Positions 7,764-37,404 of a DNA stretch of 64,000 nt are shown one piece after another. Within the stretch, counting starts at the first letter, position 1; each line of letters begins with the position of its first letter. Both the position numbers and the translations under genes were made by a program. The stretch is from Nitrospira sp. Lineage in GTDB: Bacteria > Nitrospirota > Nitrospiria > Nitrospirales > Nitrospiraceae. The notes below the pieces were generated by a model. That model was not told where the DNA came from. It searched no databases and was given only the letters and a program-made list of their open reading frames with translations. The stretch covers positions 1-64,000 of the forward strand of contig JADLEJ010000043.1 of assembly GCA_020846195.1 (NCBI GenBank), written 5' to 3'.

Positions 7764-7780
7764 TCCATGCTCCTCACGGT

Positions 7781-9418: not shown

Positions 9419-9460
9419 GGTCCCCTCCAGGTTATGGTCTCCGCCGCGTTCCCCGGAAAC

Positions 9461-9506: not shown

Positions 9507-9544
9507 ATCTCACGACAGGCCTGCCACGACCTGTCTCTATGCGC

Positions 9545-9566: not shown

Positions 9567-9579
9567 ATAGCCCACAAAT

Positions 9580-9621
9580 AAAAAGGCGCCCGCCACTCTT
9601 TGCAGAATGACGGACGCCTTT
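9580..9621 (-). terminator. Intrinsic terminator 1 of the nirC leader (regulated)
   Basis: A 14-bp stem with two G-U pairs and no mismatch, from AAAGGCGTCC to GGCGCCTTT, is followed by U5 on the minus strand. It includes the loop and 3' arm of the hexaloop hairpin at 9610-9627. Confidence 0.75.
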
Positions 9622-9627
9622 GTCCGT
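9610..9627 (-). promoter_or_regulatory. ANTAR-type hexaloop hairpin, nirC leader unit 1
   Basis: The minus-strand RNA reads ACGGAC-AAAGGC-GTCCGT: a perfect 6-bp stem and a six-base loop identical to that of unit 2, with A1 and G4. It competes with terminator 1. The nirC operon therefore appears to be gated twice in series. Confidence 0.65.
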
Positions 9628-9685
9628 TGCCTTATGTCGAATCCATCAACCGAAGCGCCGTTGCCCCAGTCAACTCACGATTCGA

Positions 9686-9715
9686 CTTGTACCACGCTCA
9701 CAACCCTACCGTCAA
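9686..9715 (-). promoter_or_regulatory. Candidate sigma-70 promoter of the nirC operon leader
   Basis: TTGACG, an 18-base spacer and TACAAG on the minus strand put the transcript start near 9679, upstream of both hexaloop/terminator units. The 18-base spacing is shared with the nadE and porin leader promoters. Confidence 0.45.
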
Positions 9716-11154: not shown

Positions 11155-11208
11155 CCCCCTCCTCCTTTCAGGCTCCTCACAACAACCCGCGTGAGACCTT
11201 TTCGACGG

Positions 11209-15558
<4,350 letters not shown>

Positions 15559-15648
15559 GGTCACGATCCGCCTCCTTCGCATCGAATAGTCATACACCCG
15601 CGGGACGGGGAACCTGCTTTCCCCGCCCCGCACATCCCCTTCAGGACA

Positions 15649-16521
15649 CTAGAATGTCTTGGTGAATTTCAACTTGTAGAAATCCTCATTGTCGGAGAAA
15701 TCATGACCGGCGGTGAACCGAAACGCCATGCCGCCCGCCAGCTTCATTTCCACATAGGGCCCGAACCAGCGATAGTAATCCTGCTGCGCGCCCGGTGCGC
15801 TGTTGTCGCGCGTGCTCAACAGATGCTCGTAGTGCGCGCCTGCAGAGAACATGCTGTTGAAGCGATAACCGGCATTCGCCCACCAGTGGAGGAAGTCCCA
15901 GGTCCCGCGGCGGCCAGAAGCGCAATCTCCGAAGTCGGAGACGCAGTTTTGCCCCGTTTGATTCGCCGATCCGACGTTGCCGCCTTCGTTCCGGCCTGCC
16001 TTGTAGTAGCCCATATAGAATTCGCCCTCGAACCGGTCATCCATGTAATTCACAATGATATTCGGCACCCATCCGTCGAACGCGGTCGTGCGTTCGTTGC
16101 GGCTGCCGCCTCCTTTGGGGAATGACCCGCCCCGTGAAGACAGCAAGCTGCCATGCACAGTGCCCAACATCGGCGTCACGCTCAGGCGCTTGTCGAAAAA
16201 CGTAAAGTTCAAGCCGAGGTCTAACTCCAACCAGGGATTCGCATCGTGCACGCCCTGGCCGCTGATGTTCGTCCAATAGGTGGTGCTGAACGCCAGCGCG
16301 ATGTCTTTCGTCAATCCGTACGTTCCATACACAGAAGGATTGAATCCGAAGAAACTGTCGGCCTGCATGGCCGTGGTCACGGACACCGGATGCTTCGTCG
16401 TATCCATCAAATCGTCGGTAATGCCGGCTTGGACCTGGCCAGTTGACGTCATCATCAGACCGGCCGCCATCACTACGCCCGATACCCATTTCTGCGCATG
16501 TCGCTGCATAAACATACTCAT
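15649..16521 (-). CDS. Outer-membrane beta-barrel protein of the amt operon
   Basis: 290 aa from the ATG at 16521, which follows GGAGG. There is a signal peptide (about 1-34, cleaved near VQAG) and then alternating aromatic beta-strand patterns (FGFNPSVYGTYGL, VEMKLAGGMAFRFTAG) ending in a C-terminal Phe, as expected for an outer-membrane barrel. It is the first gene before amtB-glnB-glnD-glnA and has its own dual-hexaloop leader. I infer that it lets ammonium or another small nitrogen compound cross the outer membrane. The exact family is not recognised with confidence. Confidence 0.75.
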   Translation of the reverse strand: MSMFMQRHAQKWVSGVVMAAGLMMTSTGQVQAGITDDLMDTTKHPVSVTTAMQADSFFGFNPSVYGTYGLTKDIALAFSTTYWTNISGQGVHDANPWLELDLGLNFTFFDKRLSVTPMLGTVHGSLLSSRGGSFPKGGGSRNERTTAFDGWVPNIIVNYMDDRFEGEFYMGYYKAGRNEGGNVGSANQTGQNCVSDFGDCASGRRGTWDFLHWWANAGYRFNSMFSAGAHYEHLLSTRDNSAPGAQQDYYRWFGPYVEMKLAGGMAFRFTAGHDFSDNEDFYKLKFTKTF

Positions 16522-16528
16522 GGCACCT

Positions 16529-16592
16529 CCAGAGATTAAAAAGTCTCCACATCCGTTATCCCAGGCGGGTATAACGAGTTGACGATCTCTGG
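16529..16592 (-). promoter_or_regulatory. Anti-Shine-Dalgarno helix in the OMP-amtB leader
   Basis: In minus-strand RNA, CCAGAGAT (16585-16592) is perfectly complementary to ATCTCTGG (16529-16536), which overlaps the ribosome-binding GGAGG. The first arm overlaps the 3' arm of hexaloop P2 (16589-16604). Folding of P2 would therefore free the ribosome site. Between the arms lies a further stem (CGTTAT.CCC/GGGATAACG, 16554-16576). This points to translational rather than terminator-based control. Confidence 0.5.
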
Positions 16593-16604
16593 CGCCATTG
16601 CCAG
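16589..16604 (-). promoter_or_regulatory. ANTAR-type hexaloop hairpin P2, OMP-amtB leader
   Basis: The minus-strand RNA reads CTGGC-AATGGC-GCCAG: a perfect 5-bp stem with loop A1/G4. It is separated by only 8 nt from P1, which has the identical loop. Confidence 0.7.
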
Positions 16605-16612
16605 CAAAAATG

Positions 16613-16630
16613 ACCGACGCCATTGTCGGC
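16613..16630 (-). promoter_or_regulatory. ANTAR-type hexaloop hairpin P1, OMP-amtB leader
   Basis: The minus-strand RNA reads CCGAC-AATGGC-GTCGG with an additional G-U pair. The loop has A1 and G4 and is identical to P2. This is the clearest double-hexaloop element in the window. It lies 56 nt after the nadE stop, so read-through from nadE could supply the transcript. Confidence 0.7.
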
Positions 16631-16685
16631 CTGTGTCTGTCCATCGGAAGAAGTTCCGCGGTGCTTCTCCCCGACACTCACACGG

Positions 16686-18452
16686 CTATCGATACCCGTT
16701 CGTAATCGGCATCCGGCGGTCCTTGCCGAACGCGCGATGCGTAATCTTGATGCCGATCGGCGCCTGCCGCCGCTTGTACTCGCTGCGATCCACCAGCCCA
16801 ATCACCGCCGCCACCACCGCCCGGTCGAACCCCATGGCCGCGATCTCTTCCGGCGACCGGTCCTCCTCGACATACGCTTTCAAAATAGGGTCGAGAACCG
16901 CATAGGGCGGCAAACTATCCTCGTCTTTCTGGTCCGGCCGCAGCTCCGCCGTCGGCGCCCGGTCGATGATGCGCTTGGGAATCACCGCCGCCGGGCCGGC
17001 CGCATTCCGCAGATGCGAGAGGGCATAGACCATGGTCTTCGGCACATCCTTGATCACCGCAAACCCGCCGGCCATATCGCCGTACAACGTCGCGTACCCC
17101 ACACTCATCTCGCTCTTGTTCCCGGTAGTCAGCACGAGGTGGCCGAACTTGTTCGAGAAGGCCATCAGCAGATTGCCTCGAATGCGAGCCTGCAGATTCT
17201 CCTCAGTCGTATCCGCTGGCGCACCGGCGAACGACGCCGCAAGCGCTTGCCGGTACCGGTCGAATGTCGGCGTGATCGCAATCGTGTCGTAGGCGATGTG
17301 CAGCCGCCCGGCCAAGTCCGCCACATCCTCGCCGCTGTCCTGTGAGGTGTAGGGCGAGGGCATGAACAGGCCCCGCACATTGTCCGCGCCGAGCGCATCG
17401 GCCGCGATCACCGCAGTAATCGCCGAATCGATCCCGCCGCTTAATCCGATGACGACCTTTTTAAAACCGTTTTTCCAAACATAATCCCGCACACCGAGCA
17501 CCAGCGCGGCATACACCTCATCCAATTCTTCACGGAGCGGCTCTAGCGCGGACACGACACGCGCGCGCTTCGGAGCGGCGGGCAGTTTCACGGTCATCCG
17601 TTCGACCGCGTTCGCCAACTTGCCGCTCAGCGCTCTCGTCCGCTGCTGGGCCATTCGATGCCGCACAACGGCATCGACATTCAAATCGGCCAGCAGAAAA
17701 TCCTCTTGAAAGGCCTTGGCCCGTGCAATGACCGCCCCGGTCTGATCGAGCACCAGGCTGTTGCCATCGAACACCAGTTCGTCCTGCCCGCCGACCGTAT
17801 TGGTGTACGTCACGATCACGCCATTCTCGCGGGCGCGCGTGGCCAGCATTTGTTCGCGAATCCGGCTCTTGCCGATCTGGAAGGGAGACGCATTGATATT
17901 GATGATGACATCGGCGCCGGCCGCAGCCTGATAGCGCGTTGGGCCGTCCGGGAACCAGATGTCTTCGCAAATGTTGACGCCGATCGTGGCGCCGCGCAGC
18001 GTGATGAGAGGCAGCATGCGCCCCGGACGGAAATACCGGCTCTCGTCGAACACCCCGTAGTTCGGCAGCAGCCATTTGCTATAGCGGGCCACGACGCCGC
18101 GTTCGCTCAACACCGCCGCCGCATTCGACAACTCATGCTGCCCAGCCGGCACCACCGGCGGGCGCGACCGCTTGTCGTTCACCTGTCCCTGTCCCACGCA
18201 GCCAACCACCGCGAGCAGGCCGCGGCACTCTTTGACGATCTCGTCCAGCGCGCGCCGGTTGTCCGCCACGAAACGGGGCTTGAGCAGCAAATCCTCCGGC
18301 GGGTATCCCGTTATCGCCAGCTCCGGAAACACCACGACGTCGGCCTTGGCCTTGCGCGCCTCTTTGATCCAGCGCTTGATGAGGCGGGTATTGCCGGCGA
18401 TATCGCCCACCGTGGGATTGATCTGCGCCATGGCGACACGAAGAATACGCAT
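16686..18452 (-). CDS. nadE: Glutamine-dependent NAD+ synthetase
   Basis: 588 aa. The N-terminal nitrilase-type glutaminase domain (about 1-270) has the Glu44/Lys126/Cys162 triad, and the C-terminal ATP-pyrophosphatase domain has SGGIDS at 338-343. It releases ammonia from glutamine and uses it to amidate nicotinate adenine dinucleotide to NAD+. The ATG at 18452 (GGAGTG upstream) is preferred over the open frame running back through the palindromic repeat. Unusually, a promoter, two hexaloop hairpins and a terminator precede it, and the amt-gln genes follow after 164 nt. Confidence 0.95.
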   Translation of the reverse strand: MRILRVAMAQINPTVGDIAGNTRLIKRWIKEARKAKADVVVFPELAITGYPPEDLLLKPRFVADNRRALDEIVKECRGLLAVVGCVGQGQVNDKRSRPPVVPAGQHELSNAAAVLSERGVVARYSKWLLPNYGVFDESRYFRPGRMLPLITLRGATIGVNICEDIWFPDGPTRYQAAAGADVIININASPFQIGKSRIREQMLATRARENGVIVTYTNTVGGQDELVFDGNSLVLDQTGAVIARAKAFQEDFLLADLNVDAVVRHRMAQQRTRALSGKLANAVERMTVKLPAAPKRARVVSALEPLREELDEVYAALVLGVRDYVWKNGFKKVVIGLSGGIDSAITAVIAADALGADNVRGLFMPSPYTSQDSGEDVADLAGRLHIAYDTIAITPTFDRYRQALAASFAGAPADTTEENLQARIRGNLLMAFSNKFGHLVLTTGNKSEMSVGYATLYGDMAGGFAVIKDVPKTMVYALSHLRNAAGPAAVIPKRIIDRAPTAELRPDQKDEDSLPPYAVLDPILKAYVEEDRSPEEIAAMGFDRAVVAAVIGLVDRSEYKRRQAPIGIKITHRAFGKDRRMPITNGYR

Positions 18453-18587: not shown

Positions 18588-18593
18588 TAACCC

Positions 18594-18654
18594 AAAAAAA
18601 AACGCCCTCAGGCTTTTCCCACCAAGAGCCCCTTGGGGAAACGCCGGAGGACGT
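18594..18654 (-). terminator. Intrinsic terminator of the nadE leader (regulated)
   Basis: A ~19-bp stem (ACGTCCTC...TTTCCC with GGGAAA...GAGGGCGT; two mismatches) is followed by nine U on the minus strand. Its 5' arm begins inside the loop of hexaloop P2 (18646-18665), so P2 and the terminator cannot coexist. Confidence 0.8.
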
Positions 18655-18665
18655 CATTGTCCGCC
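18646..18665 (-). promoter_or_regulatory. ANTAR-type hexaloop hairpin P2, nadE leader
   Basis: The minus-strand RNA reads GGAC-AATGAC-GTCC, extended by two further pairs beyond one mismatch. The loop has A1 and G4. It overlaps the terminator's 5' arm. Confidence 0.65.
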
Positions 18666-18683: not shown

Positions 18684-18701
18684 GGAGACTTCGTTGTCTC
18701 C
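18684..18701 (-). promoter_or_regulatory. ANTAR-type hexaloop hairpin P1, nadE leader
   Basis: The minus-strand RNA reads GGAGAC-AACGAA-GTCTCC: a perfect 6-bp stem with loop A1/G4. It starts about 10 nt after the predicted transcript start and 19 nt before P2. Confidence 0.7.
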
Positions 18702-18717: not shown

Positions 18718-18747
18718 GTTATAGCAACGCTCCGGTCCGTCTGTCAA
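18718..18747 (-). promoter_or_regulatory. Sigma-70 promoter of nadE
   Basis: A perfect TTGACA, an 18-base spacer and TATAAC on the minus strand place the transcript start near 18711, immediately before the P1 hairpin. The divergent lipoprotein promoter lies about 100 bp away. Confidence 0.75.
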
Positions 18748-24135: not shown

Positions 24136-24822
24136 CTACGAACGAAACAACCGCGACTCCAAGCGGCTGTGCCGCATGGCATAAATATCTTGGATGGGCG
24201 ACCAGGAGCGCAACGTTTGCTGCTCGGCCGCTTGCCGGCTGACCCGTTCGATGACGTCGATCCAGCTGTCCAATAATCGCTGGCCTTCACGTTGTCCGAT
24301 CGGCAGCAGCTTCATGGCGGCGGCAACAGCGCCTGTCGCAGCCTGATAGAGAAAGGCGGCAATCGAGTCGGCTTTCGACCAGCCGGCCGCCGCCAGCGTG
24401 AGGCCCATGGCAACAGCCACATGCCCGGGCGTCCGATCTGCCTCGACCGCCGCGACATACGCCTCGAGCAATGGATGCCGGTCGCGCTGCTCTACCGCCA
24501 GGCGAATAACCTGCCGCCCCATCTGCCGACTCGCGCCCCGCGATTCCCGCCCGAGCTTCATGGCCTCCAACTCCAGATCGGCACTCAACGCAACCTCAAG
24601 CATCCCTGCAATAATAGCGTCGTGGGCCAATCCTACCGCGACAGCCTCTCGCTCTCCCATCCCAATCGTCAGCGACTCTTGCACGAACCGCGACAACTCC
24701 TCCGAGTCCTTCACCGCCCCGCCCTGCACTGCCGCCTCCAACCCAGACGAAAAGGCATAGCCGCCAGACGGGAAAAAACTATCGACGAAGCGAAGGCCTT
24801 TCAAGAACGCAAGGGTATTCAT
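24136..24822 (-). CDS. ureF: Urease accessory protein UreF
   Basis: 228 aa from the ATG at 24822, beginning LKGLRFVDSFFPSGGYAFSSGLE, the family signature. UreF bridges UreD and UreG and gates the GTPase during nickel loading. Spacing to AGGAG is long (about 14 nt), so translation may be weak or the start slightly different. A 121-bp palindromic repeat lies between it and ureC. Confidence 0.92.
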   Translation of the reverse strand: MNTLAFLKGLRFVDSFFPSGGYAFSSGLEAAVQGGAVKDSEELSRFVQESLTIGMGEREAVAVGLAHDAIIAGMLEVALSADLELEAMKLGRESRGASRQMGRQVIRLAVEQRDRHPLLEAYVAAVEADRTPGHVAVAMGLTLAAAGWSKADSIAAFLYQAATGAVAAAMKLLPIGQREGQRLLDSWIDVIERVSRQAAEQQTLRSWSPIQDIYAMRHSRLESRLFRS

Positions 24823-24854
24823 GTGCTGCGTGCGCGCTCCTATCGCTTGCGAGA

Positions 24855-24975
24855 GGCTGCTCAAAACGTTGTCCAGCAAGGCCGCAGACGACGAACGCAC
24901 CGGAGGCGTACCCTCTCGGGTACGTTGAGGATGCGTTCAAGGCGAGAACGCTGCTGGGCGGCGTTTTCAGCAGCC
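24855..24975. repeat. Palindromic intergenic repeat, copy 2
   Basis: About 121 bp with inverted ends GGCTGCTCAAAACG and CGTTTTCAGCAGCC, and a central GTACCC/GGGTACG palindrome. It matches the copy at 18466-18587. It is inserted exactly between the ureC stop (24978) and ureF, so it interrupts ureABC-ureF. Confidence 0.8.
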
Positions 24976-24977
24976 GA

Positions 24978-26705
24978 CTAAAAAAGGAAATACCGCTGCG
25001 CCATCGGCAGCAGCGCCACCGGATCGCAGGTCAGAATCTGGCCGTCGGCCTTTACCACATAGGTCTCCGGATCGACATCGATCTGCGGCAGCGCGTCGTT
25101 GAGCTTCATGTCCCGCTTGCCGATGCCGCGGCACTTCCTCACGGCCGCCGTCCGTTTCTGCAAACCAAGTTTCTTCGCAACCTCTTGCTCCACCGCGGCC
25201 TTCGAAAGGAAGGTCAGACTGGTCTCGAACGGCGCGCGGCCGAAACTGCCGAACATCGGTCTCGTGAACACCGGCTGGGGTGTGGGGATCGACGCGTTCG
25301 GATCGCCCATGGCTGCGGACATCGGAAAGCCTCCCTTCAGAACGATTTCAGGCTTCACTCCGAAAAAGGCCGGTTTCCACAAGACAAGATCCGCCAGCTT
25401 GCCGGTTTCAACCGACCCGACTTCATGCGCGATGCCATGCGCGATCGCGGGATTGATCGTATATTTGGCCACATAGCGCCGCGCGCGGAAATTATCGTTC
25501 GCGCCGGACAGCTTGTCCGCCGCCGTTGGCGACAAATGACCGCGCTGCACTTTCATCTTATGCGCCGTCTGCCAGGTGCGGATGATGACCTCGCCCACCC
25601 GCCCCATCGCCTGCGAATCGGACGACATCATGCTGATCGCCCCCAGGTCGTGCAGAATGTCCTCGGCGGCAATCGTTTCGCGGCGGATGCGCGACTCGGC
25701 GAAGGCAATGTCCTCCGGCACGCGCGGATTCAAATGATGGCAGACCATGAGCATGTCAAGATGCTCGTCCATCGTGTTGACGGTGAACGGCATGGTGGGA
25801 TTCGTGGATGACGGCAGCACATTCGCCTCGCCGCAGACCTTGATGATGTCCGGCGCATGGCCGCCGCCAGCCCCTTCCGTATGGAAGGAGTGAATCGTCC
25901 GGCCTTTGAAGGCCTTGATCGTGTCTTCGATAAATCCGGCTTCATTCAAGGTGTCGGTGTGGATCGCCACCTGCACATCATAATCTTCCGCGACGTCGAG
26001 ACAGGTCGAGATCGCCGCCGGCGTCGTCCCCCAATCTTCGTGCAGCTTGAGTCCAATCGCGCCGGCTTCGATCTGTTCACGCAATCCCTCCGGCAGCGAC
26101 GCATTGCCCTTTCCCAGAAACCCGAGATTGATCGGGAAGCCATCCGCCGCTTCCAGCATGCGATGCAGATTCCAAGCGCCAGGGGTGCATGTCGTCGCGT
26201 TGGTCCCGGTGGCGGGGCCAGTGCCGCCGCCGATCAACGTGGTCAGCCCGTTCGCAATGGCCTCCGTAATAATTTGCGGGCAGATGAAGTGGATATGCGT
26301 GTCGATCCCGCCCGCAGTGACGATCTTTCCCTCGGCGGACAAGACTTCCGTCCCCGGCCCAATGTCCATGCCCTTCGTAACCCCATCCATGAGATCCGCA
26401 TTGCCCGCCTTGCCGATGCCAACGATGCGGCCGTCGCGAATCCCGATATCGGCCTTCACCACGCCCCACCAGTCGAGAATGATGGCGTTGGTGATCACGA
26501 GGTCGAGCGCGCCCTTTGCGCGAGTCGCTGAAGGCGATTGCCCCATCCCATCGCGAATGACTTTGCCGCCGCCGAACTTGGCTTCTTCCCCAGGCATCGT
26601 CAGGTCGCGGGTGATTTCGATGAAGAGATCGGTATCGGCGAGACGGACGCGATCGCCAACCGTCGGACCATACAGATCGTTGTACTGGCGCCGAGTGAGC
26701 TTCAT
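24978..26705 (-). CDS. ureC: Urease alpha subunit
   Basis: 575 aa. All active-site residues are present: His137 and His139 (THIH), carbamylated Lys220 (GLKLHEDW), His249, His275, flap Cys322/His323 and Asp363, each offset by 3 from the Klebsiella numbering. It hydrolyses urea to ammonia and carbamate with two Ni2+. The start overlaps the ureB stop by 4 nt, so the longer open frame is rejected. Confidence 0.98.
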
Positions 26706-27199
26706 CGCCCGGTTTCCTTCCCGATAAAGCCCAACTCTCGAGCCATGGCGAGCGCCTGCCGCTTGACGTTCGGATCGTCCAGCCGTCCATTCACGAGTCC
26801 ATTGATCCCATAGGCCACGCGATTGCCGCTGATCGCCACCAGCGTCACACGCTTGTCCTCTCCCGGCTCGAATCGCACTGCGGTTCCAGCCGGGACCTGC
26901 AAACGAAAACCGTAGGCCTGTTCGCGGTCGAACCGCAGCGCGCGGTTGGCTTCGAAGAAATGGCAATGCGACCCGACCTGAATCGGCCGGTCGCCGGTAT
27001 TCGACACGATCAGCTCGACCGTCGGACGGCCATTGAACGCCACAATGTCGCCGTCGCCGAGGATCACTTCACCGGGAATGACCGCGGCAGGCTGACGCGA
27101 GACGCTCTTCACCGCTTTCTTCACGGCGGTTCGCTTGACCGGTTTCTTCGCCATCGCCCGCTTCGACTGCGTCTTCTTTGTCTTCGACGATTGTTTCAT
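26702..27199 (-). CDS. ureB: Urease beta subunit with Lys-rich N-terminal extension
   Basis: 165 aa against the usual ~100-110. Residues from about 42 ([12 protein letters not shown]...) to the end are a normal UreB. The first ~41 residues are an added basic, Lys/Ser/Thr/Ala-rich tail (many Lys, no Asp or Glu) with no known domain. An internal ATG (MAKKPVKR, about residue 16) is an alternative start, but even that leaves an extension. ureA ends only 10 nt upstream, so the ORF start at 27199 is compatible with operon spacing. Confidence 0.93.
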
Positions 27200-27209
27200 G
27201 TGATCGTAC

Positions 27210-27512
27210 CTATCGAATCGGTTCGTGAACTGTCACCAGCTTGGTCCCGTCTGGAAACGTGCCCTCGACTTGCAACTCAGGAATCATCTCCGCCACACCG
27301 GACATCACGTCGCTCTTCTTGAGCAGCGTCGCGCCATAGCTCATCAGATCCGACACGGACCTCCCATCGCGAATTCCTTCCAGAATCGCCGCGGTGATAT
27401 AGGCCATCGCCTCCGGATGGTTCAGCTTCAATCCGCGCGCCTTCCGCTCCTTGGCCAAATTCGCTGCGACATAGATCAACAGCTTTTCTTGCTCACGTGG
27501 TGTCAGATGCAT
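27210..27512 (-). CDS. ureA: Urease gamma subunit
   Basis: 100 aa, a standard separate gamma subunit ([27 protein letters not shown]... [13 protein letters not shown]). It forms part of the (alpha-beta-gamma)3 urease assembly. It is first in ureABC, 153 nt downstream of urtE, with a long inverted repeat between them. Confidence 0.97.
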
Positions 27513-27548
27513 GATCTCCTCATTTCAACTCTCGCCCGCCCCCCAAAA

Positions 27549-27657
27549 GCTGCGGGTGTATTCTCTCCTGCGCGCATTGATCGAGCACAATCCATCATCT
27601 TGCAATCTAATGGGTCCCCTGTGCGCGAACAGCGAGCAAAGAGAACACACCCGCAGC
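27549..27657. repeat. Long inverted repeat between urtE and ureA
   Basis: 18-bp arms (GCTGCGGGTGT.TTCTCT, one mismatch) at 27549-27566 and 27640-27657 enclose 73 nt that can pair further (CTGCGCGCA with TGTGCGCG). On the minus strand the stem is followed by TTTT, so it may attenuate urt to ure read-through. It could also be a palindromic mobile remnant. Confidence 0.5.
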
Positions 27658-27665
27658 CTCAGCCC

Positions 27666-28376
27666 TCACACCACCAAATGCCGCTTAACCTCTTCAGCGC
27701 TCAATTCGCTCGTCTTCCCTGCCGCCACCACGGCGCCCTTCGCCATGATCACGTAGGCGTCGGCCAGCCTGGCGGCGAAATGCAGCCCCTGCTCGACCAG
27801 CAGGATAGCGAAACGCCTGGAGCTTTTGAAGCCGATAATCACGTCTTCGATCTGATCCACGACGGACGGCTGAATCCCTTCTGTCGGCTCATCCAATAGC
27901 AAGACTTTCGGATCGGAGAGAATCGCGCGGCCAATCGCCAGCTGTTGCTGTTCTCCGCCGCTCAGGACGCCGCCCGGCCGCTCCAGAATCTGCGTGAGCT
28001 TGGGAAAGAGGCGATAGACTTCGTCGAACGCCACTTGCTCCGACGCGCTATCGCGTTTCGTGGCGCGCGCCCAGAATCCCAACTGCAAATTCTCGCGCAC
28101 GGTCAGATGGGGAATGATCTCGCGTCCTTGCGGCACATAGGCCAGACCGTTTCGCGCCCGGCGATCCGTCGCCTCTTTCGTGATGTCCGCCCCGTTCAGC
28201 GAGACCTGCCCAGATCGCACCGGCAGCAATCCCATGATGGCCTTGAGCGTTGTGGTCTTGCCCACCCCGTTGCGCCCCATGAGACAAGCCACCTGCCCCG
28301 CGTCAATCGTGAAAGAGACATCGCGAAGAATGTGGCTTTCACCGTAATAGGCGTTGATGTTGCGCAATTGCAGCAT
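27666..28376 (-). CDS. urtE: Urea ABC transporter ATP-binding protein UrtE
   Basis: 236 aa. Walker A GRNGVGKTT, signature LSGGEQQQLAIGRA, Walker B VLLLDEPTEGIQPS and switch His in LVEQGLHF. It belongs to the LivF class of the branched-chain/urea importer family. The ATG at 28376 is 2 nt after the urtD stop, so the longer frame is rejected. Confidence 0.95.
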   Translation of the reverse strand: MLQLRNINAYYGESHILRDVSFTIDAGQVACLMGRNGVGKTTTLKAIMGLLPVRSGQVSLNGADITKEATDRRARNGLAYVPQGREIIPHLTVRENLQLGFWARATKRDSASEQVAFDEVYRLFPKLTQILERPGGVLSGGEQQQLAIGRAILSDPKVLLLDEPTEGIQPSVVDQIEDVIIGFKSSRRFAILLVEQGLHFAARLADAYVIMAKGAVVAAGKTSELSAEEVKRHLVV

Positions 28377-28378
28377 AG

Positions 28379-29143
28379 CTAGTGACCGACTTTTTGGCGG
28401 CCAAGATAAATTTCTCGCACCCGGTCGTTGGCCTGCACGACATCGACCGTCCCTTCGCAAATCACGGTGCCTTCGTGCAGAACCGTGACGGTCCTGGCAA
28501 TCTGCCGTACAAATTCCATGTCGTGCTCAATGACGATCACCGCATGCTTCTCCGCTAGCGTTTGGAGCAACACCCCGGTCTGCTCCGTCTCTTTATCTGT
28601 CATGCCGGCCACCGGCTCATCGACGAGCAAGAGCGCGGGGTCCTGCAAAATCACCATGCCGATTTCCAGCCACTGCTTTTGCCCGTGCGAAAGCAACCCG
28701 GCCCGCCGGTGCGGATCTTCGTGCAGCCCGATCATGTCCAGCGTCTTCGCGATGCGCTCCCGCTCGGCGGCAGTGGAGGTGCTCAACAGCGTCGCGATCA
28801 CCCCTTTGCTGTCCCGCTTCAACGACAAATCGAGATTCTCCCAAACTGTCAGATTGCTGTAAATCGAAGGCGCTTGGAACTTCCGGCCGATCCCCAGTTT
28901 CGTAATGTCGTCTTCTCGCTTCCCAACCAGATCCACATCCTTGCCGAAGATCACGCGGCCTTGAGCTGGCTTCGTCTTGCCGCAGATCACGTCGAGCAAC
29001 GTGGTCTTTCCCGCGCCGTTCGGCCCGATGACGACGCGCAACTCGTTATAGCCGACGATAAAGTTCAGATTGTTGAGCGCCTTGAATCCGTCGTAATCGA
29101 CGACGACGCCGTCCAGATAGATGATCGAACCCTTCTCGTTCAC
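28379..29143 (-). CDS. urtD: Urea ABC transporter ATP-binding protein UrtD
   Basis: 254 aa, LivG class. Walker [10 protein letters not shown], a LSHGQKQWLEIGM-type signature and Walker B LLLVDEPVAGMTDKE, which is typical of UrtD. The start overlaps the urtC stop by 4 nt. It pairs with UrtE to energise urea import. Confidence 0.95.
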   Translation of the reverse strand: MNEKGSIIYLDGVVVDYDGFKALNNLNFIVGYNELRVVIGPNGAGKTTLLDVICGKTKPAQGRVIFGKDVDLVGKREDDITKLGIGRKFQAPSIYSNLTVWENLDLSLKRDSKGVIATLLSTSTAAERERIAKTLDMIGLHEDPHRRAGLLSHGQKQWLEIGMVILQDPALLLVDEPVAGMTDKETEQTGVLLQTLAEKHAVIVIEHDMEFVRQIARTVTVLHEGTVICEGTVDVVQANDRVREIYLGRQKVGH

Positions 29144-30294
29144 GGCTGCACTCCCTCCGAGGCGGGCTTAGCCTTCTTGAACAGGGTCCCGACCGGCCCG
29201 GCCTTCAGGCGCCGCGTGAGTCCAACCAAGCCATCGGGGAACAGGAGCACCACCGCGATGAAAAGGCCGCCTAAAAAGAACGGCCAGAGCTCGGGAAAGT
29301 AATTCGTCAGGATGCTGCGGCCGAAGTTGACCCCGACCGCCCCGATGATCGCCCCGACCAGCGTACCGCGCCCGCCGACCGCCACCCAGATCACCATTTC
29401 AAGCGACGGCAGCACCCCGATCTGCGCCGGCGTGATAATCCCCACCTGGGGGACATACAGCAATCCAGCCAAGCCCGCGAGTCCAGCCGAGACGACGAAC
29501 ACGAAGACCTTATAATTCGACGGCGAGTAGCCGGAAAAGAGGACCCGTTGTTCGCTGTCGCGCACGGCGATCAAGACCTTGCCCGCGCGAGACTGCACGA
29601 TCCAGCGGCAGAGAAAATAGGCTCCGCCCAATGCCAGCACGGTCGCCACATACAAGGCGCGTTGCGTGCCGGGCTCACTGAGGCGAAATCCCAGCAGCTG
29701 TTTGAAATCGGTCAGCCCGTTCGTTCCGCCCAGGTTGGTTTCATTCCGATTGAAGACCAGCCAGGCCGAGAGCGCGACCGCCTGCGTGATGATCGCGAAG
29801 TAGACACCTTTGATCCGGCTGCGAAAAGCCAGGAGGCCGAAAAGCCAGGCGCAGAACATCGGCGCGAGCACCCCCAGCCCCACCGCCGCCAGGAAACTAT
29901 AGAAGGGGGTCCAGAAGAGCGGCAATTCCTTGACCTGGTTCCACACCATGAAATCCGGCAAGGCGCTGCCGTAGACGCCTTCCGATCCGATCGTTAGCAT
30001 CAGGTGCATGCCCATGCAGTAGGCCCCAATGCCGAAGAACACACCCTGCCCAAGACTCAGAATGCCGGTATAGCCCCAAATCAGATCCAGCCCCAGAGCC
30101 AGAATGGCAAACGCGAGAAATTTTCCAAACCGGTTCAGCGTAAAATCCGAGACATGCAGCCACGACTCTTCGGCCGGCAACACGTTCAACGCAGGCAGGA
30201 CGATAAGAAGAAACAGCCCGATCAGCCAGAATAGCAAACTCTCACGTTCTGCCGCCGGCTGCCCCTCGCTCGTCGTCTCGCTCATAGAGTTCAT
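29140..30294 (-). CDS. urtC: Urea ABC transporter permease UrtC
   Basis: About 384 aa and ~10 hydrophobic segments of the LivM class, with WGYTGILSLGQGVFFGIGAYCMGMHL near the N-terminus and EMVIWVAVGGRGTLVGAIIGA near the C-terminus. The ATG at 30294 is 1 nt after the urtB stop; the ATG at 30285 is an alternative. Confidence 0.94.
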   Translation of the reverse strand: MNSMSETTSEGQPAAERESLLFWLIGLFLLIVLPALNVLPAEESWLHVSDFTLNRFGKFLAFAILALGLDLIWGYTGILSLGQGVFFGIGAYCMGMHLMLTIGSEGVYGSALPDFMVWNQVKELPLFWTPFYSFLAAVGLGVLAPMFCAWLFGLLAFRSRIKGVYFAIITQAVALSAWLVFNRNETNLGGTNGLTDFKQLLGFRLSEPGTQRALYVATVLALGGAYFLCRWIVQSRAGKVLIAVRDSEQRVLFSGYSPSNYKVFVFVVSAGLAGLAGLLYVPQVGIITPAQIGVLPSLEMVIWVAVGGRGTLVGAIIGAVGVNFGRSILTNYFPELWPFFLGGLFIAVVLLFPDGLVGLTRRLKAGPVGTLFKKAKPASEGVQP

Positions 30295-30295
30295 G

Positions 30296-31882
30296 CTAGT
30301 CCGCGTGGCGCCCCTTGATGGCAAAGAGACCGGACGGACGCCGCTGCAAAAACAAAATCACCAGCACCAGGATGAAGACTTTGCCATAGACAGCGCCGAA
30401 GCTCGGCTCGAGAAATTTATTGAGGCTGCCGATGCCCAAGGCCGCCACGATGGTTCCAGCCAATTTACCGACGCCCCCAGTCACCACCACCATGAAAGAA
30501 TCGACGATATAATTCTGCCCCAGACCCGGCTCGACATTTCCGACCAGCGTGAGCGCACAACCGGCCAGCCCGGCCAAGCCCGATCCGAACGCAAAGGTAT
30601 AGGCATCGACCTGCCTGGTCGGAATGCCGAGGCAGGCGCTCATGTTCCGATTCTGCGTAACGGCGCGCACCCGCAATCCCAGGCTGGAACGGAACAGCGT
30701 TAGATAGATTCCGATGACGCAGACGATCGATAGGCCAATAATAAAGATCCGGTTGTACGGAAGGTAGACGCCGACCAGCACTTGTGCGCCGCCGCTCAGC
30801 CAGGCCGGCGCTGTCACGGCCGTTAAATCGCCGAACAGCACCCGCGCCAGCTGGATAAGCACTAGGCTGACGCCCCAGGTGGCCAGCATCGTCTCCAGAG
30901 GCCGGCCATACAGAAAGCGGATCACCGTGGCTTCCAGAAACAGACCGCAAGCCCCGGCAACCAGAAACGCCACCGGAAGCGACGCGAGGAAATAGGCATC
31001 GAACATCGACGGCGGCAGATAGGCTTTGAACAGTTCCTGCGTCATGAACGTAGCGTAGGCCCCCACCATCATGAGTTCGCCATGGGCCATATTGATGACA
31101 CCCATCAGCCCGAACACAATCGCCAGCCCCAGCGACATCATCAGGAGAATAGAACTAAGACTCACGCCTCGAAAGAGCGTCTCGAAGACACCGGCCCAGG
31201 TGCTCCAAATCTCGATGCGTTCGATCGCCTGGGACACCGCGGCGAGAACCGGCGCATCGGACTCGCGCGGGCTGGCCTCGCCAGATAACTGCTGTGCCAG
31301 CTCTTTGAGCGCCGGAAGTCCGTTCTGACTTCGCAGCTCGCCGAGCTTTGCCGCGGCGGCGTCGCGAACCGATGGATCGTCATCCGCAAGCCGGAGCATC
31401 GCGGCGCCCTCTTCCATGGCATAGCGAGCCCAATATTGCGATTCCTTGGCGGCGGCGGCTTCCAGCCATGGCGCCGCCAGCCGCTGACCGGACACACCCA
31501 GATCGCCGGCCGCCGCGCGGCGCACCGCTTCATCGTCGCTGGCAAGGTTCAGTTTATTTTTCAGCAGGGCTTTGACCGGCTTCACCGCTACGCGCGTGGC
31601 GCGATCAGCCTCTTCGAGCACCAGCTCCAAACGGCTCAGCGTCGCGGCATCGCCCGTTTCGACAAGCACCCGCACCGCCTGCTGTTGCACGGCGGGATCC
31701 TCGCTGGAGAGCTGCCCGACCAGCGTCTTCATGCCCTCTACTTCTGATCCCTGCCCCCCATCCGCCACGGAGGAGCCTGGTTCATCCAGGCCGGCTGCCC
31801 ACGCGACAGCGCTTCCGGACAGACCTAGCGCCAAGACAAAAAGAACGACTCCTGTTCGAACCAGCGATCGTGTCATCTTCAC
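30296..31882 (-). CDS. urtB: Urea ABC transporter permease UrtB
   Basis: 528 aa. A signal peptide (1-30) and a ~200-residue extracytoplasmic helical, HEAT-like region (VQQQAVRVLVETGDAATLSRLE...) precede the LivH-class membrane domain (GLAIVFGLMGVINMAHGELMMVGAYATF). The N-terminal domain distinguishes UrtB from LivH. Confidence 0.94.
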   Translation of the reverse strand: MKMTRSLVRTGVVLFVLALGLSGSAVAWAAGLDEPGSSVADGGQGSEVEGMKTLVGQLSSEDPAVQQQAVRVLVETGDAATLSRLELVLEEADRATRVAVKPVKALLKNKLNLASDDEAVRRAAAGDLGVSGQRLAAPWLEAAAAKESQYWARYAMEEGAAMLRLADDDPSVRDAAAAKLGELRSQNGLPALKELAQQLSGEASPRESDAPVLAAVSQAIERIEIWSTWAGVFETLFRGVSLSSILLMMSLGLAIVFGLMGVINMAHGELMMVGAYATFMTQELFKAYLPPSMFDAYFLASLPVAFLVAGACGLFLEATVIRFLYGRPLETMLATWGVSLVLIQLARVLFGDLTAVTAPAWLSGGAQVLVGVYLPYNRIFIIGLSIVCVIGIYLTLFRSSLGLRVRAVTQNRNMSACLGIPTRQVDAYTFAFGSGLAGLAGCALTLVGNVEPGLGQNYIVDSFMVVVTGGVGKLAGTIVAALGIGSLNKFLEPSFGAVYGKVFILVLVILFLQRRPSGLFAIKGRHAD

Positions 31883-31967
31883 TCTATCAATACCGTCTTA
31901 CAATACCGGCTTGTTTGCATCACCTTCGCACCAGACATTCTTGCCACGCACCCGAGTCCCAGCCGCT

Positions 31968-32005
31968 CCGGATTCCCCTTTCGGGGGTGGAGCGGAACGG
32001 CTGGG
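31968..32005 (-). other. Stem-loop between urtA and urtB
   Basis: 8-bp outer stem CCCAGCCG/CGGCTGGG with inner CTCC/GGAG and CCCC-GAAA-GGGG pairing, 28 nt after urtA. There is no U-run. Such structures after a binding-protein gene usually protect its mRNA and raise its level above the permeases. Confidence 0.55.
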
Positions 32006-32032
32006 CCGGTGGCTGGAGGAACGCACATCCTC

Positions 32033-33406
32033 TCAGGCCTTTTTCGAGTACGTCCCCTGATGCGTAATCCAATCGCAGCCCTTATCGGGGCTGGTGTACT
32101 CGCTCCAGGGTTCCGGTTTCACGAGTCCTTTTGAGCGCGACACGACTTTGATCTGGCCGTCCTTGAGAATCTCGCCGATCAAGACGGGCTTGTGCGTATG
32201 ATGATTCCCCGCATCCATCACGATCTCTCCGCCCGGCGCGAGGAATTTCTGCCCATAGACGGCCTTGCGCACGCTGTCCACTTCAATGGAGCCGGCTTTC
32301 TCGACCGCCTGCTTCCAGACATGCACGCCGAAGTACGCGGCCTCGATGGGATCGTCGGTGACTCGCTTGTCGCCATCGGGCAGATTGTTCTTTTTGCAGT
32401 AGGCTTTGAAATTGGCCACGAACTGCTTGTTCTGCGGCGTCTCCACGCTCTGATAGTAGTTCCAGGCCGCCAGGTGGCCGACCAGCGCCGTGGTATCCAT
32501 GCCGCGCAGCTCATCTTCCGCCACGCTGAACGCCATGATCGGCACATCGTCCGCGCGCAGCCCCTGATTGGCGAACTCCTTGTAGAACGGCACGTTGCTG
32601 TCGCCGTTGATTGTGCTGATTACCGCCGCGCCGCCGCCCGCCGAAAATTTCTTAATCTTCCCGACGATGGTCTGGTAATCCTGGTGATGGAACGGCGTGT
32701 ATTCTTCCATGATGTTCGCTTCCGGCACTTTTTTCGCCAGCAGCATGGCCCGCAGAATCTTGTTAGTCGTGCGCGGATAGACGTAGTCCGTCCCGAGCAG
32801 ATAGAACTTCTTGAATCCGCCGCCTTCCTTGCTCATCAGGTATTCCACCGCCGGCACTGCCTGCTGATTCACGGCCGCGCCGGTATAGAAGACGTTGCGC
32901 GAGCACTCTTCGCCTTCATACTGGACGGGATAGAACAACAACCCATTATTCTTCTCGAACACCGGCAAGACGGACTTGCGGCTCACCGAAGTCCAGCAGC
33001 CGAACACGACGGCGACTTTATCCTGCAATAAGAGCTGCTTCGCCTTCTCCGCGAACAGATCCCAGTTCGATGCGGGATCGACGACCACCGGCTTGATCTG
33101 GCGGCCCAGCACGCCGCCCTTGGCATTGATCTCTTCCACCGCCATCAAGACGGTATCGCGCAACGACACTTCGCTGATCGCCATGGTGCCGCTGAGAGAA
33201 TGCAGCACGCCAATCTTGATCGGCTCCTTATCGGCGGCATAGGACAGCGCCCAATTCCCGAGATTCCCGAGTAACGCCGCAATCCCGACACCGGCGGTCA
33301 TGCGCGCGCTCCGCACCAGAAAATCGCGCCGGGACGATCCTGCGTCTTCGACTGCCGCCGCGCCGCTCTCGATGACCGCTGCCTCTTTTATATTTTTATT
33401 GTCCAT
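32033..33406 (-). CDS. urtA: Urea ABC transporter substrate-binding protein UrtA
   Basis: 457 aa. The leader contains SSRRDFLVRSARMTAGVGIAAL, a twin-arginine-type signal, after a ~26-residue N-region. The mature part has IKIGVLHSLSGTMAISE, VVFGCWTSVSRKSVLPVFE and YPVQYEGEECSRNVFYTGAAVNQQ, characteristic of UrtA urea-binding proteins. AAGGAG precedes the ATG. It follows the porin gene by 31 nt. Confidence 0.95.
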   Translation of the reverse strand: MDNKNIKEAAVIESGAAAVEDAGSSRRDFLVRSARMTAGVGIAALLGNLGNWALSYAADKEPIKIGVLHSLSGTMAISEVSLRDTVLMAVEEINAKGGVLGRQIKPVVVDPASNWDLFAEKAKQLLLQDKVAVVFGCWTSVSRKSVLPVFEKNNGLLFYPVQYEGEECSRNVFYTGAAVNQQAVPAVEYLMSKEGGGFKKFYLLGTDYVYPRTTNKILRAMLLAKKVPEANIMEEYTPFHHQDYQTIVGKIKKFSAGGGAAVISTINGDSNVPFYKEFANQGLRADDVPIMAFSVAEDELRGMDTTALVGHLAAWNYYQSVETPQNKQFVANFKAYCKKNNLPDGDKRVTDDPIEAAYFGVHVWKQAVEKAGSIEVDSVRKAVYGQKFLAPGGEIVMDAGNHHTHKPVLIGEILKDGQIKVVSRSKGLVKPEPWSEYTSPDKGCDWITHQGTYSKKA

Positions 33407-33437
33407 TGTCAGGCTCCTTAGTAGCGCCGTGAGGCCG

Positions 33438-34724
33438 CTAGAAGTTGTACCAAGTTGAGACCATGAAATTGTCGCCGCTGAACCGCTCGTTCGTGCTCCA
33501 GGTCGTCATGAGATGGTTCCACTCGAATGAGCCGTACAAATCGCCCCAGATATGCCGCACCGCCGTGAGATAGGTCCGGTGGTTCACTTTGTACTGCTGA
33601 TCGGCAACTGCCGTGGTGCCTCTGATGTCGCTGTTGAGCGGATTGTCGAAACCATACCCGGCAATGAAGGTGTAGTTCTGGTCGTAGGCATAATCGAATT
33701 CCCCCCATCCAACAAGGGTCCGAATCGGCGCGCCGGTGCCGAGATTGCGCTCCTGGCCGTACCGGAAGAATTCCACGCCGAGGCCCTGGCCCCAGGCCAA
33801 TTCGCCGGAGAACTTCAGCTGTTTCGTAATCGGGATCACCAACTCGCCGCCGATCAAGTAGGACTTCACATCCTGATTGCTCGGAATAGAAGTCGTGGTC
33901 GTCGGCGCGGCGTGATAGTGCCGGAAGGCCGCATTCAATGCCGCCATGAATCCCTGCATGCTCCCCGTGCCGGTATAGCCGAATCGTGTGCCCACATAGG
34001 GCATTTGCACGGGATCGTTGAACGCCGAGGATGCCGACGCCCCCGGAGCCTGGACGCGATTTGGGGTTTGCCCGCAACAAGCGGACAGGCCGCGCTCGAA
34101 ACGCATGACGGTAATCAGCCCGTCGAAGTTTTCGCTGAATTGCTGCCGGACCGTGACTTGGGGAAGACGCTGCCAGAGATTGCCGTTGTACCCCATGATC
34201 GAAAAGTCGATCAGGTTCGGGTGCAAGCCCATGATCGGCGTCCAGTCCATGCCGACGGTGATGCTGGTCTTGTTGTTGTTCGGCGAATATTTGACGTTCG
34301 CCAACCGGAGACGCGGCGACAGGTTGCCGGCGTTGTCCGTCTGGCTATAGAAATCGGCTTCGATGACACCGGACAAAACGTGCGTCCCATCGGTGCGGTC
34401 GCCGCGAATGCCGAACGCACTATAGCGCGGGTTCAGCGTGGAGGAAGAGTTTCCTCCCTTTCCCGCTGCGGTCGCGTATCCATTGAACTGGCCGGGATCG
34501 AGTGGGTTGGTATTCCTGGTGCTGTAGATTCCGTCGAGCTCGATGCGCCCATAGGGGGTAATGCTGCCCTTCCCCTGCGAAGTATGTGTCGCACTGACGC
34601 ACCCGCCGCAAATGATACTGGGCACTTCTTCTTTCGTGTCGTCCGCTGCCGCGACGGCCTGCCCGGCCAGCAAGGCCAAAACGAAGACGCCGCCGATTCG
34701 AATATATTCCTTCAGGGGTATCAT
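33438..34724 (-). CDS. Porin-like outer-membrane protein of the urea operon
   Basis: 428 aa from the ATG at 34724 (AAGGAG upstream). A signal peptide (about 1-25) is followed by a long beta-barrel pattern (YGRIELDGIYS, YSAFGIRGDR, LSGVIEADFYS... WYNF with terminal Phe). This is the plan of a general or specific porin. As the first gene of porin-urtABCDE-ureABC it probably admits urea across the outer membrane; FmdC-type short-chain amide porins are a comparable case, but I cannot assign that family. Confidence 0.82.
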   Translation of the reverse strand: MIPLKEYIRIGGVFVLALLAGQAVAAADDTKEEVPSIICGGCVSATHTSQGKGSITPYGRIELDGIYSTRNTNPLDPGQFNGYATAAGKGGNSSSTLNPRYSAFGIRGDRTDGTHVLSGVIEADFYSQTDNAGNLSPRLRLANVKYSPNNNKTSITVGMDWTPIMGLHPNLIDFSIMGYNGNLWQRLPQVTVRQQFSENFDGLITVMRFERGLSACCGQTPNRVQAPGASASSAFNDPVQMPYVGTRFGYTGTGSMQGFMAALNAAFRHYHAAPTTTTSIPSNQDVKSYLIGGELVIPITKQLKFSGELAWGQGLGVEFFRYGQERNLGTGAPIRTLVGWGEFDYAYDQNYTFIAGYGFDNPLNSDIRGTTAVADQQYKVNHRTYLTAVRHIWGDLYGSFEWNHLMTTWSTNERFSGDNFMVSTWYNF

Positions 34725-34796
34725 CCGACGCTCCTTCTTCCCTCTTGGTCTATGCACCGTGAATGTGTAAGACGAGGATCGGAGCGACGTGCGGGC

Positions 34797-34841
34797 AAAA
34801 AAAAACGTCCTCCGGTCCAGTCAGTGGAACCAGAAGGACGT
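34797..34841 (-). terminator. Intrinsic terminator of the porin-urt leader (regulated)
   Basis: A 15-bp stem with two bulges (ACGTCCTTC...CCA/TGG...GAGGACGT) and loop CTGAC is followed by nine U on the minus strand, 72 nt before the porin ATG. The 5' arm is made from the last loop bases and 3' arm of hexaloop P2. Confidence 0.8.
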
Positions 34842-34852
34842 CTTTGTCCTTC
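34833..34852 (-). promoter_or_regulatory. ANTAR-type hexaloop hairpin P2, porin-urt leader
   Basis: The minus-strand RNA reads GAAGGAC-AAAGAC-GTCCTTC: a perfect 7-bp stem and a six-base loop with A1 and G4, overlapping the terminator. Confidence 0.7.
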
Positions 34853-34872: not shown

Positions 34873-34896
34873 AAAAGAGACTTCGTCGTCCCTCTT
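34873..34896 (-). promoter_or_regulatory. Hexaloop hairpin P1, porin-urt leader
   Basis: A nine-pair stem (AAGAGGGAC/GTCTCTTTT, with two G-U pairs) and six-base loop GACGAA with G4. Position 1 is G rather than A; otherwise the loop matches nadE P1 (AACGAA). It begins about 16 nt after the predicted transcript start. Confidence 0.55.
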
Positions 34897-34918: not shown

Positions 34919-34948
34919 CTTATACGGTGCCCGCGACGGTTCTGTCAA
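34919..34948 (-). promoter_or_regulatory. Sigma-70 promoter of the porin-urt-ure operon
   Basis: A perfect TTGACA, an 18-base spacer and TATAAG on the minus strand. The predicted transcript start near 34912 is directly upstream of P1. The arrangement matches the nadE promoter in strength, spacing and distance to P1. Confidence 0.75.
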
Positions 34949-36083: not shown

Positions 36084-37346
36084 TCAGACCTGTCGTTTTT
36101 CGGCTCGTTCGTCGATGTCTCCGGCAAGGAGAATCGCTTCGGCGATCTCTCTCATGGATTTCCGCAAATCCATGCTCTGCCGTTGAATCAGCTTAAACGC
36201 TTCTTCTTCCGACAGCCTCTTTGACCGCATGAGATACCCTTTCGCGCGATCCAGCAATTTCCGCACGGCCAGGGCCTCTTGCATCTCAAACGATTTTTCC
36301 AGCAAGGTGGTGTGTTCGATGGAGATCGCTGCCTGATTGGCAATCGCCTGCATCAGACGCACTTCTTCAGATGTAAACGTATGGGGAACCGAGGTATAAC
36401 TATTGATCACGCCGACGCACTTCTCCCGCATCATCATCGGCACGGACAGCAGGGAACAGAATCCTTCCTTCGCCGCCATATCCGGATACATATAGTCCCG
36501 CTCTTTCGTCACTTCGGGAACGATGATCGGCCGCCGCTGGTGAACCGCTCGTCCACTGATGCTTTGTCCGACTTTCAGATTAGGTTTCCGCCGATACTCT
36601 TCGCTCAAGCTTTGCGTCGCCGCGATCCGCAACTCTCCGCTCGCTTCATCCAGCAACATAATCGAACAGATTTTCGACCCCAACATCTGCGCGGTCATCG
36701 TCACAATCAACTGCAAGACATCGTCGATAATTCGATTCGATGCAACGGTTTCAGACACTTGCGACAAGGTTTCCAACTGCAGCGCCTTTCGGCGCATCTG
36801 GTCGTATAGGCGCGCATTTTCAATGGCCCCGCCAACCTGATTAGCAATCGTCGTAAGGAGGGCCAGCTCGTCCTCCCGATACCGCCGAGAGCGCTTGTGC
36901 TGGACGTTGATGACGCCGCTGACTTCTTTCTTCGAAAGAATAGGCACCGACACAAACGCCTGATAGCGATCCTCCGGAAGATTGTTGAAAAATTTGAACC
37001 GCGGATCTTCACTGGCGTTGCTGGGAATGACCACGCGGGTGCGTTCGCGCGCCACCAAGCCGGTGATGCCCTCACCTAACCCGATTGTGATACGCCCGAT
37101 AAGACGCGGATGCGGATTTTTCGATGCCCGCAGAATCAATTCATCCCGCCCATCGGATAACAGATATAAGAGACAGGCATCCGCTTTCGTGACTTCGACA
37201 ACGACATCGACGATATGCCGCAGCACCGCCTCAAGATCGAGCGTGTTGCTGATCGAGTCGCTGATGCGATGCAACACGTCCACCTCGCGAGTTTTTTCCC
37301 GCAAGGCCTGCTCAAGTTGCGCGGCAGAAAGCTTTTTCGATTCCAT
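36084..37346 (-). CDS. GAF-GAF-ANTAR RNA-binding antitermination regulator
   Basis: 420 aa. A short N-terminal coiled coil (1-25) leads into two GAF sensor domains (about 35-180 and 200-345) and a C-terminal ANTAR domain (about 352-406) with the family pattern RAKGYLM (367-373), LSEEEAFKLIQRQSMD and REIAEAIL. ANTAR proteins such as NasR, AmiR and EutV bind double hexaloop hairpins in leader mRNA and prevent termination. Five or more such hairpins precede nitrogen genes in this window. GAF domains could bind a nitrogen metabolite directly; there is no receiver domain. It lies 58 nt after aroB, perhaps co-transcribed. The ATG at 37346 fits AGGAAG better than the GTG at 37355. Confidence 0.92.
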   Translation of the reverse strand: MESKKLSAAQLEQALREKTREVDVLHRISDSISNTLDLEAVLRHIVDVVVEVTKADACLLYLLSDGRDELILRASKNPHPRLIGRITIGLGEGITGLVARERTRVVIPSNASEDPRFKFFNNLPEDRYQAFVSVPILSKKEVSGVINVQHKRSRRYREDELALLTTIANQVGGAIENARLYDQMRRKALQLETLSQVSETVASNRIIDDVLQLIVTMTAQMLGSKICSIMLLDEASGELRIAATQSLSEEYRRKPNLKVGQSISGRAVHQRRPIIVPEVTKERDYMYPDMAAKEGFCSLLSVPMMMREKCVGVINSYTSVPHTFTSEEVRLMQAIANQAAISIEHTTLLEKSFEMQEALAVRKLLDRAKGYLMRSKRLSEEEAFKLIQRQSMDLRKSMREIAEAILLAGDIDERAEKRQV

Positions 37347-37404
37347 CCCGCTCACTTCCTGAAAAACATTTCGGCGCTACAACCTACGATTCTACTCGCC
37401 CTTA

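Follow-up and report, generated by a model that had tools for sequence, protein, structure and literature searches.

The regulator gene and the nitrogen units of the locus

The window, i.e. the whole stretch of 64,000 nucleotides of Nitrospira sp. DNA that was analysed, is part of contig C43 of a 3.3-Mb Nitrospiraceae genome and encodes a predicted one-component RNA-binding regulator with a GAF-GAF-ANTAR architecture (36084-37346, -). Its gene, which has aroB upstream, starts with an ATG at 37346, a GTG at 37355 being also possible (ORF 36084-37355, -). Pfam identifies two GAF domains (E 3e-44) and an ANTAR domain at residues 358-409 (PF03861, E 2.5e-19), which scores 69.2 bits, well above the curated cut-off of 27.3. 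No receiver domain is found in the protein by Pfam. An earlier sequence-only reading had proposed that the window contains one ANTAR protein, with two GAF domains and no receiver; both points are confirmed by Pfam, and the protein is also the sole ANTAR protein of the 3.3-Mb genome. Alignment to EutV (PDB 6wsh), using the residue numbering and RNA-contact list of the EutV-RNA structure paper (PMC8934654), shows that six of the 11 contact residues are identical (R142, K143, K149, E160, M172, and R175), two are conservatively replaced (K147R and Y164F), and three differ (N173D, R168Q, and R177S). The six identical residues do not vary among 42 aligned proteins, and the Phe that replaces Y164, the residue stacking on G4 in EutV, is nearly invariant.

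The GAF domains resemble those of two nitrogen regulators. In a predicted structure of the protein (mean pLDDT 78, pTM 0.44), the fold nearest to GAF1 is the GAF domain of EI-Ntr/PtsP (3ci6; 31% identity, Z 21.4, rmsd 2.2 Å over 157 residues), which is also its second-best sequence match, while the NifA profile is the best match around GAF2. We rejected membership in either family, the match being confined to the GAF parts and the whole protein scoring far below the family cut-offs (142 vs 583 bits for the PtsP model, 101 vs 529 bits for NifA). The EI-Ntr GAF binds glutamine (PMC4848567) and that of Azotobacter NifA binds 2-oxoglutarate (PMC8219145). By analogy, a nitrogen-status ligand for the GAF-GAF module is plausible; we go no further because GAF domains are alike among themselves and because of the pLDDT and pTM of the model, and to name glutamine and/or 2-oxoglutarate as this ligand is a guess. 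A NifA-like GAF-AAA-Fis sigma54 activator is encoded elsewhere in the window, beyond nirA (1097-2653, -), and a more distant homologue (46-47%) follows glnA in some other genera.

Three groups of nitrogen genes lie on the same strand. Two were identified by Pfam/NCBIfam, nirC-cynS-nirA (6201-9418, -) and glutamine-dependent nadE followed by OMP (DUF6733), amtB, glnB, glnD, and glnA (9745-18452, -). The third consists of a porin gene, urtABCDE, ureABC, and a further ure gene (24136-34757, -); urtA, urtB, and ureC were identified by Pfam, the rest being named from position and homology between genomes, and the further ure gene (24136-24900) is called ureF on account of position and neighbours. 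The only Rfam match in the window, 5_ureB_sRNA (RF02514, 89 bits, 26264-26556, +), is antisense within ureC and may reflect merely the conserved urease coding sequence.

Paired hexaloop hairpins in five leaders

Direct reading of the minus strand revealed five pairs of hairpins, each composed of P1 followed by P2, upstream of nadE, OMP-amtB, nirC (nir1 and nir2, in tandem), and the porin-urt genes. Four of these leaders (urt, nadE, nir1, and nir2) display the anatomy of ANTAR targets, i.e. a P1 hexaloop hairpin and then a P2 hexaloop hairpin whose 3' arm is the start of a strong terminator. In the urt leader, a sigma70-like promoter (TTGACA-N18-TATAAG; 34919-34948, -) is followed by P1 with the loop GACGAA (34873-34896, -), P2 (GAAGGAC-AAAGAC-GTCCTTC; 34833-34852, -), and the terminator that has this arm in common with it (34797-34845, -). 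The nadE leader, which heads the nadE-OMP-amtB-glnB-glnD-glnA unit, has the same order of promoter (TTGACA-N18-TATAAC; 18718-18747, -), P1 (GGAGAC-AACGAA-GTCTCC; 18684-18701, -), P2 (GGAC-AATGAC-GTCC; 18649-18662, -), and overlapping terminator (18593-18657, -). Ahead of nirC-cynS-nirA, a single promoter (TTGACG-N18-TACAAG; 9686-9715, -) precedes nir1, with P1 (loop AACGGC; 9645-9674, -), P2 (ACGGAC-AAAGGC-GTCCGT; 9610-9627, -), and a terminator of 15 bp by inspection (9578-9618, -), and then nir2, with P1 (GACAGGTC-GTGGCA-GGCCTGTC, G1/G4; 9514-9535, -), P2 (GGAC-AAAGGC-GTCC; 9493-9506, -), and a terminator (9460-9499, -), both terminators again having the 3' arm in common with P2.

The sequence-only reading had described competition between the last hairpin and a strong terminator in three units, which agrees with the overlap in nadE, urt, and both nir leaders. 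It had also described loops with A1 and G4: G4 is present in all ten hexaloops of the window, but A1 in eight, the P1 loops of urt and nir2 starting with G. The leaders fold with z-scores of -3.9 to -5.3, and forcing P2 to form costs 7.4 kcal/mol in nadE, 7.8 in urt, 13.4 in nir1, and 13.9 in nir2, which fits the expectation that something must hold P2. The promoters, of the form TTGACA/G-N18-TAYAAN, lie immediately upstream of nadE, urt, and nir1, and in relatives a promoter-like site accompanies nadE leaders in 97% of cases and urt leaders in 90%, compared with 10 and 4% in shuffled sequences, respectively. No Rfam family matched the leaders at the gathering threshold.

The fifth pair, which lies between nadE and OMP ∼55 nt downstream of nadE, is different. 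Its P1 (GGCCGAC-AATGGC-GTCGGTC; 16612-16631, -) and P2 (CTGGC-AATGGC-GCCAG; 16589-16604, -) lack a strong terminator like those of the other leaders, and it has no promoter-like site, the best candidate having 5 mismatches. Because P2-terminator exclusion is missing, we class it as ANTAR-like only. Instead, a competing helix (16520-16598, -) pairs AUGGCGCC (16598-16591) with GGUGCCAU (16527-16520), taking in part of the Shine-Dalgarno (SD) sequence GGAGG (16530-16526) as well as the first two bases (AU) of the OMP start codon, and this helix and P2 are mutually exclusive. In the window, P2 of this element costs 3.8 kcal/mol relative to the free fold. In 17 OMP leader sequences, the SD-hiding helix (AUGGCGCC/GGYGYCAU) is paired in 99.3% of cells; it is conserved with no compensatory change, so conservation of the SD, the AUG, and P2 alone could contribute to this pairing. 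On its sequence, the OMP-amtB element probably acts as a translational switch inside the transcript rather than heading a fourth unit under attenuation. For translational action PMC3369931 offers a precedent, as a proposal, in that it notes ANTAR elements close to or overlapping ribosome-binding sites. Four separate units with leaders had been counted in the sequence-only reading; the leaders are there, but since OMP-amtB has neither a promoter-like site nor a strong terminator and sits between nadE and OMP, the promoter-driven units are probably three (nir, nadE-OMP-amtB-gln, and urt-ure), with one internal element.

Conservation, covariation, and co-occurrence with the ANTAR gene

The same elements precede nadE, porin-urt, nirC/cynS (as a tandem pair), and amtB in related genomes, and more than 10 genera have such elements ahead of the same nitrogen operons. 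In other lineages, the tandem pair precedes a gene that sequence reading alone identifies as an NrtA-like transporter gene, which suggests that the leader has been kept while the type of transporter changed. Using a neutral rule (an A1/G4 hexaloop hairpin with an overlapping terminator), we found 110 elements in related loci, of which 84 lie ahead of nadE, porin/urtA, amtB, OMP, nirC, or cynS. Nearly all of their loops read AANGRC, and a C-G closing pair, a feature outside the rule, is present in 109/110. In 843 kb consisting mostly of the window locus from related genomes, plus the window, hairpins with an overlapping terminator number 71 for A1/G4 and 1-18 for the 15 other combinations of positions 1 and 4. 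The A1/G4 count in 385 kb of orthologous loci from genomes lacking ANTAR is 2, i.e. background.

The absence of covariation in related genomes would have spoken against the sequence-only reading, but compensatory changes are present in both P1 and the terminator. In alignments built from sequence alone, pairs changed on both sides number four in nadE P1 (alignment A3), five in urt P1 (alignment A4), and nine in the nadE terminator. The P2 core shows hardly any variation, as expected if two structures constrain it. Since P2 was the selection criterion, the evidence of covariation comes from P1 and, only in part, from the terminator, whose overlap with P2 was also required.

Searches of the 3.3-Mb genome point to the same four sites. 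GGACAANGNCGTCC without mismatch occurs four times, each time within one of the four terminator leaders. Raw dual hairpins were misaligned by MAFFT, and a seed covariance model (R1) was therefore built with trimmed linkers; its weak matches were set aside, and it was superseded by a model of P2 plus terminator (R2) made from 35 real P2-terminator sequences, two of them from the window. At E<=1, R2 matches the four terminator leaders (E 9.3e-7 for urt) and nothing else in the genome. Near-pattern matches elsewhere (L035-L060) were rejected as showing no dual-hairpin attenuator, as was a 21-bit R1 match on contig C63 (L303), where a terminator scan finds none. R2 has four matches in N. moscoviensis and three in N. 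defluvii, which lie next to nadE, after glnA, and close to cynS/amtB or nirC/cynS. Those of N. moscoviensis are at G263:C1 1186109-1186169, 1195196-1195346, and 1199204-1199257. One R2 leader in an 80% complete genome (G003:C87:7884, L329) lies upstream of a response-regulator-like gene, a possible further target. In phylum-level orthologues, no convincing leader was seen in stretches of 9-20 kb each; the aroB-ANTAR gene order is kept in these relatives, at 44-49% identity (L293-L297).

A covariance model and its co-occurrence with the regulator in Nitrospira genomes had been suggested as a check. Among 147 genomes of the family, 95 have both ANTAR and R2 leaders, 41 neither, four ANTAR only, and seven leaders only (Fisher p = 2e-24 with relatedness ignored, which overstates independence because the genomes without ANTAR fall in few clades; those of the same genus need two label changes on a nadE tree). 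Completeness is 72-89% in six of the genomes with leaders only. In the remaining one, G087, an initial portion of the ANTAR gene, interrupted by an in-frame stop, survives at the place (L304 7789-7953, flanked by aroB and nadE) that intact ANTAR genes occupy in relatives. Short amtB-like fragments lie near this pseudogene, and the genome has one orphan leader (G087:C17:157076, L330). Gene and leaders are also lost together: none of the 26 same-genus genomes tested that lack ANTAR and have nadE carries a leader at nadE, and one of them retains an ANTAR pseudogene. Since aroB, ANTAR, leader, and nadE are adjacent in many genomes, one deletion might remove both the gene and the nadE leader. The urt loci, tested separately, have no leader in those genomes without ANTAR that were examined, and the porin gene is likewise not found upstream of urtA there. 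One genome without ANTAR that is 99% complete (G137) has a single leader-like element, in which an ANTAR-like pair of hairpins with a terminator precedes a small lipoprotein gene (L127 8186-8290).

AMO genes (PF02461) are present in 34 same-genus genomes, 0/34 of which have ANTAR. The 12 AMO-positive genomes of genus g9 all have it (12/12), although two of these (G054 and G057) have no R2 match. These two AMO-positive groups presumably match comammox clades A and B. By our own reading of the tables, eight same-genus genomes lack both AMO and ANTAR, indicating that the regulator is not lost strictly in step with ammonia oxidation.

A probable RNA-level nitrogen regulon

Anatomy, covariation, phylogenetic co-occurrence, and co-loss support an RNA-level nitrogen regulon under the GAF-GAF-ANTAR protein, as the sequence-only reading had suggested, as the best reading of these sequences. 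We consider it highly probable that this soluble protein serves as the antiterminator for nitrogen acquisition in this Nitrospira; in addition, it would act on OMP translation. RNA polymerase would start at the sigma70-like promoter and transcribe a short leader, in which the P1 hairpin would fold early as a landing site and P2 would form only until the downstream terminator captures its 3' arm. In a nitrogen-poor state of the GAF domains, an ANTAR dimer would bind the G4-bearing hexaloops, hold P2, and block the terminator, allowing transcription of urt-ure, nadE-OMP-amtB-gln, and nirC-cynS-nirA. Otherwise, polymerase would halt at the U-tract, of which the nir leader would offer two. Within the nadE-OMP-amtB transcript, P1-P2 would compete with the helix hiding the OMP ribosome-binding site and start codon, and the protein would turn on translation.

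The direction of the response might be the reverse, with the protein binding when nitrogen is plentiful, in which case the regulon would not be a starvation response. The GAF similarity to EI-Ntr and NifA leaves the direction and the active state free, but we consider this reversal unlikely, because the targets are scavenging and uptake genes and because most of the cluster is strongly transcribed in N. moscoviensis with nitrite as the sole nitrogen source (PMC6606698). The same paper reports that urea genes are just moderately expressed on nitrite, which counts against our preferred reading. Still less probable is that the leaders are real attenuators worked by another factor (a riboswitch, an sRNA, or another RNA-binding protein) while the ANTAR protein regulates something else. 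The biochemical link between protein and leaders is predicted, and six incomplete genomes plus G137 have a leader with no ANTAR detected. However, dual A1/G4 hexaloops followed by a terminator that overlaps P2 are characteristic of ANTAR targets (PMC3369931, PMC8934654), two separate loci show leaders only at background level in relatives lacking ANTAR, the leaders match no Rfam family at the gathering threshold, and just one ANTAR protein exists to read them. Finally, although the nir leaders sit behind glnA, where a terminator is expected, ordinary terminators or chance hairpins are ruled out by the A1/G4 excess, the covariation, the background level in ANTAR-less loci, the co-occurrence, and the specificity of R2, together with upstream promoter-like sites of their own, a conserved P1-P2 order, and orthologous positions across genera.

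The nitrogen antiterminator proposed here would be of a known kind. In Geobacter sulfurreducens, ANTAR control of nitrogen genes at several loci is exerted by GnfL/GnfR, a two-component system with a receiver-ANTAR protein that acts in nitrogen fixation. EutV of Enterococcus faecalis (PMC3369931 and PMC8934654) has an ANTAR domain most of whose RNA-contact residues recur here, and its leaders likewise have P1/P2 hexaloops with G4, exclude P2 by an overlapping terminator, and occur several times per genome. EutV reportedly binds in the low micromolar range. However, it combines a receiver with ANTAR, as a response regulator under the kinase EutW, and targets ethanolamine genes, whereas the Nitrospira protein has two GAF domains, no receiver, and nitrogen acquisition targets. 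NasR of Klebsiella (PMC7496416) is, like it, a one-component sensor fused to ANTAR that acts in nitrogen assimilation by leader attenuation, but has a nitrate-binding NIT domain and one operon instead of GAF-GAF and several. That such systems mostly serve a single pathway no longer holds: PMC3369931 predicts ANTAR regulons that take in genes for PII, glutamine synthetase, nitrite reductase, and transporters of ammonium, urea, and nitrate/nitrite. One example there is Desulfotomaculum acetoxidans, of another phylum than Nitrospira, with many nitrogen-metabolism operons carrying ANTAR elements in one genome (13 predicted elements in six transcription units). As of PMC7496416, only two one-component ANTAR proteins were characterised, NasR (NIT) and PAL (PAS-LOV), so GAF-GAF would be a new input.

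A partial search found no literature joining ANTAR with Nitrospira in this sense (supplementary tables of PMC3369931 may list Ca. Nitrospira defluvii), nor a description of the regulon, the GAF-GAF sensor type, or the loss in same-genus comammox. New here are the putative GAF-GAF one-component sensor, the probably mixed outputs (antitermination and translation), and the absence from 34/34 same-genus AMO-positive genomes. It is possible, though we hold this tentatively and with more doubt than conviction, that the GAF pair senses glutamine and/or 2-oxoglutarate directly, making the protein the one RNA-level nitrogen-status protein of nitrite oxidisers, acting by antitermination at urt, nadE, and nir/cyn and by start-site uncovering at OMP-amtB, and discarded by same-genus comammox, for which ammonia is an energy source.

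Nitrospira ranks among the major nitrite oxidisers. In N. moscoviensis the nitrogen genes are clustered and were noted as largely highly transcribed on nitrite, and the accessible text of PMC6606698 does not tie them to a regulator. Our analysis provides one candidate regulator with exact predicted RNA targets, including in the sequenced species N. moscoviensis and N. defluvii. Judging from these leaders, urea, nitrite, cyanate, ammonium, and glutamine genes appear to be switched on together by one RNA-binding protein in most of the family. Its absence from the same-genus AMO-positive genomes, and retention in those of the second genus, would be a regulatory loss linked to a change in energy metabolism.
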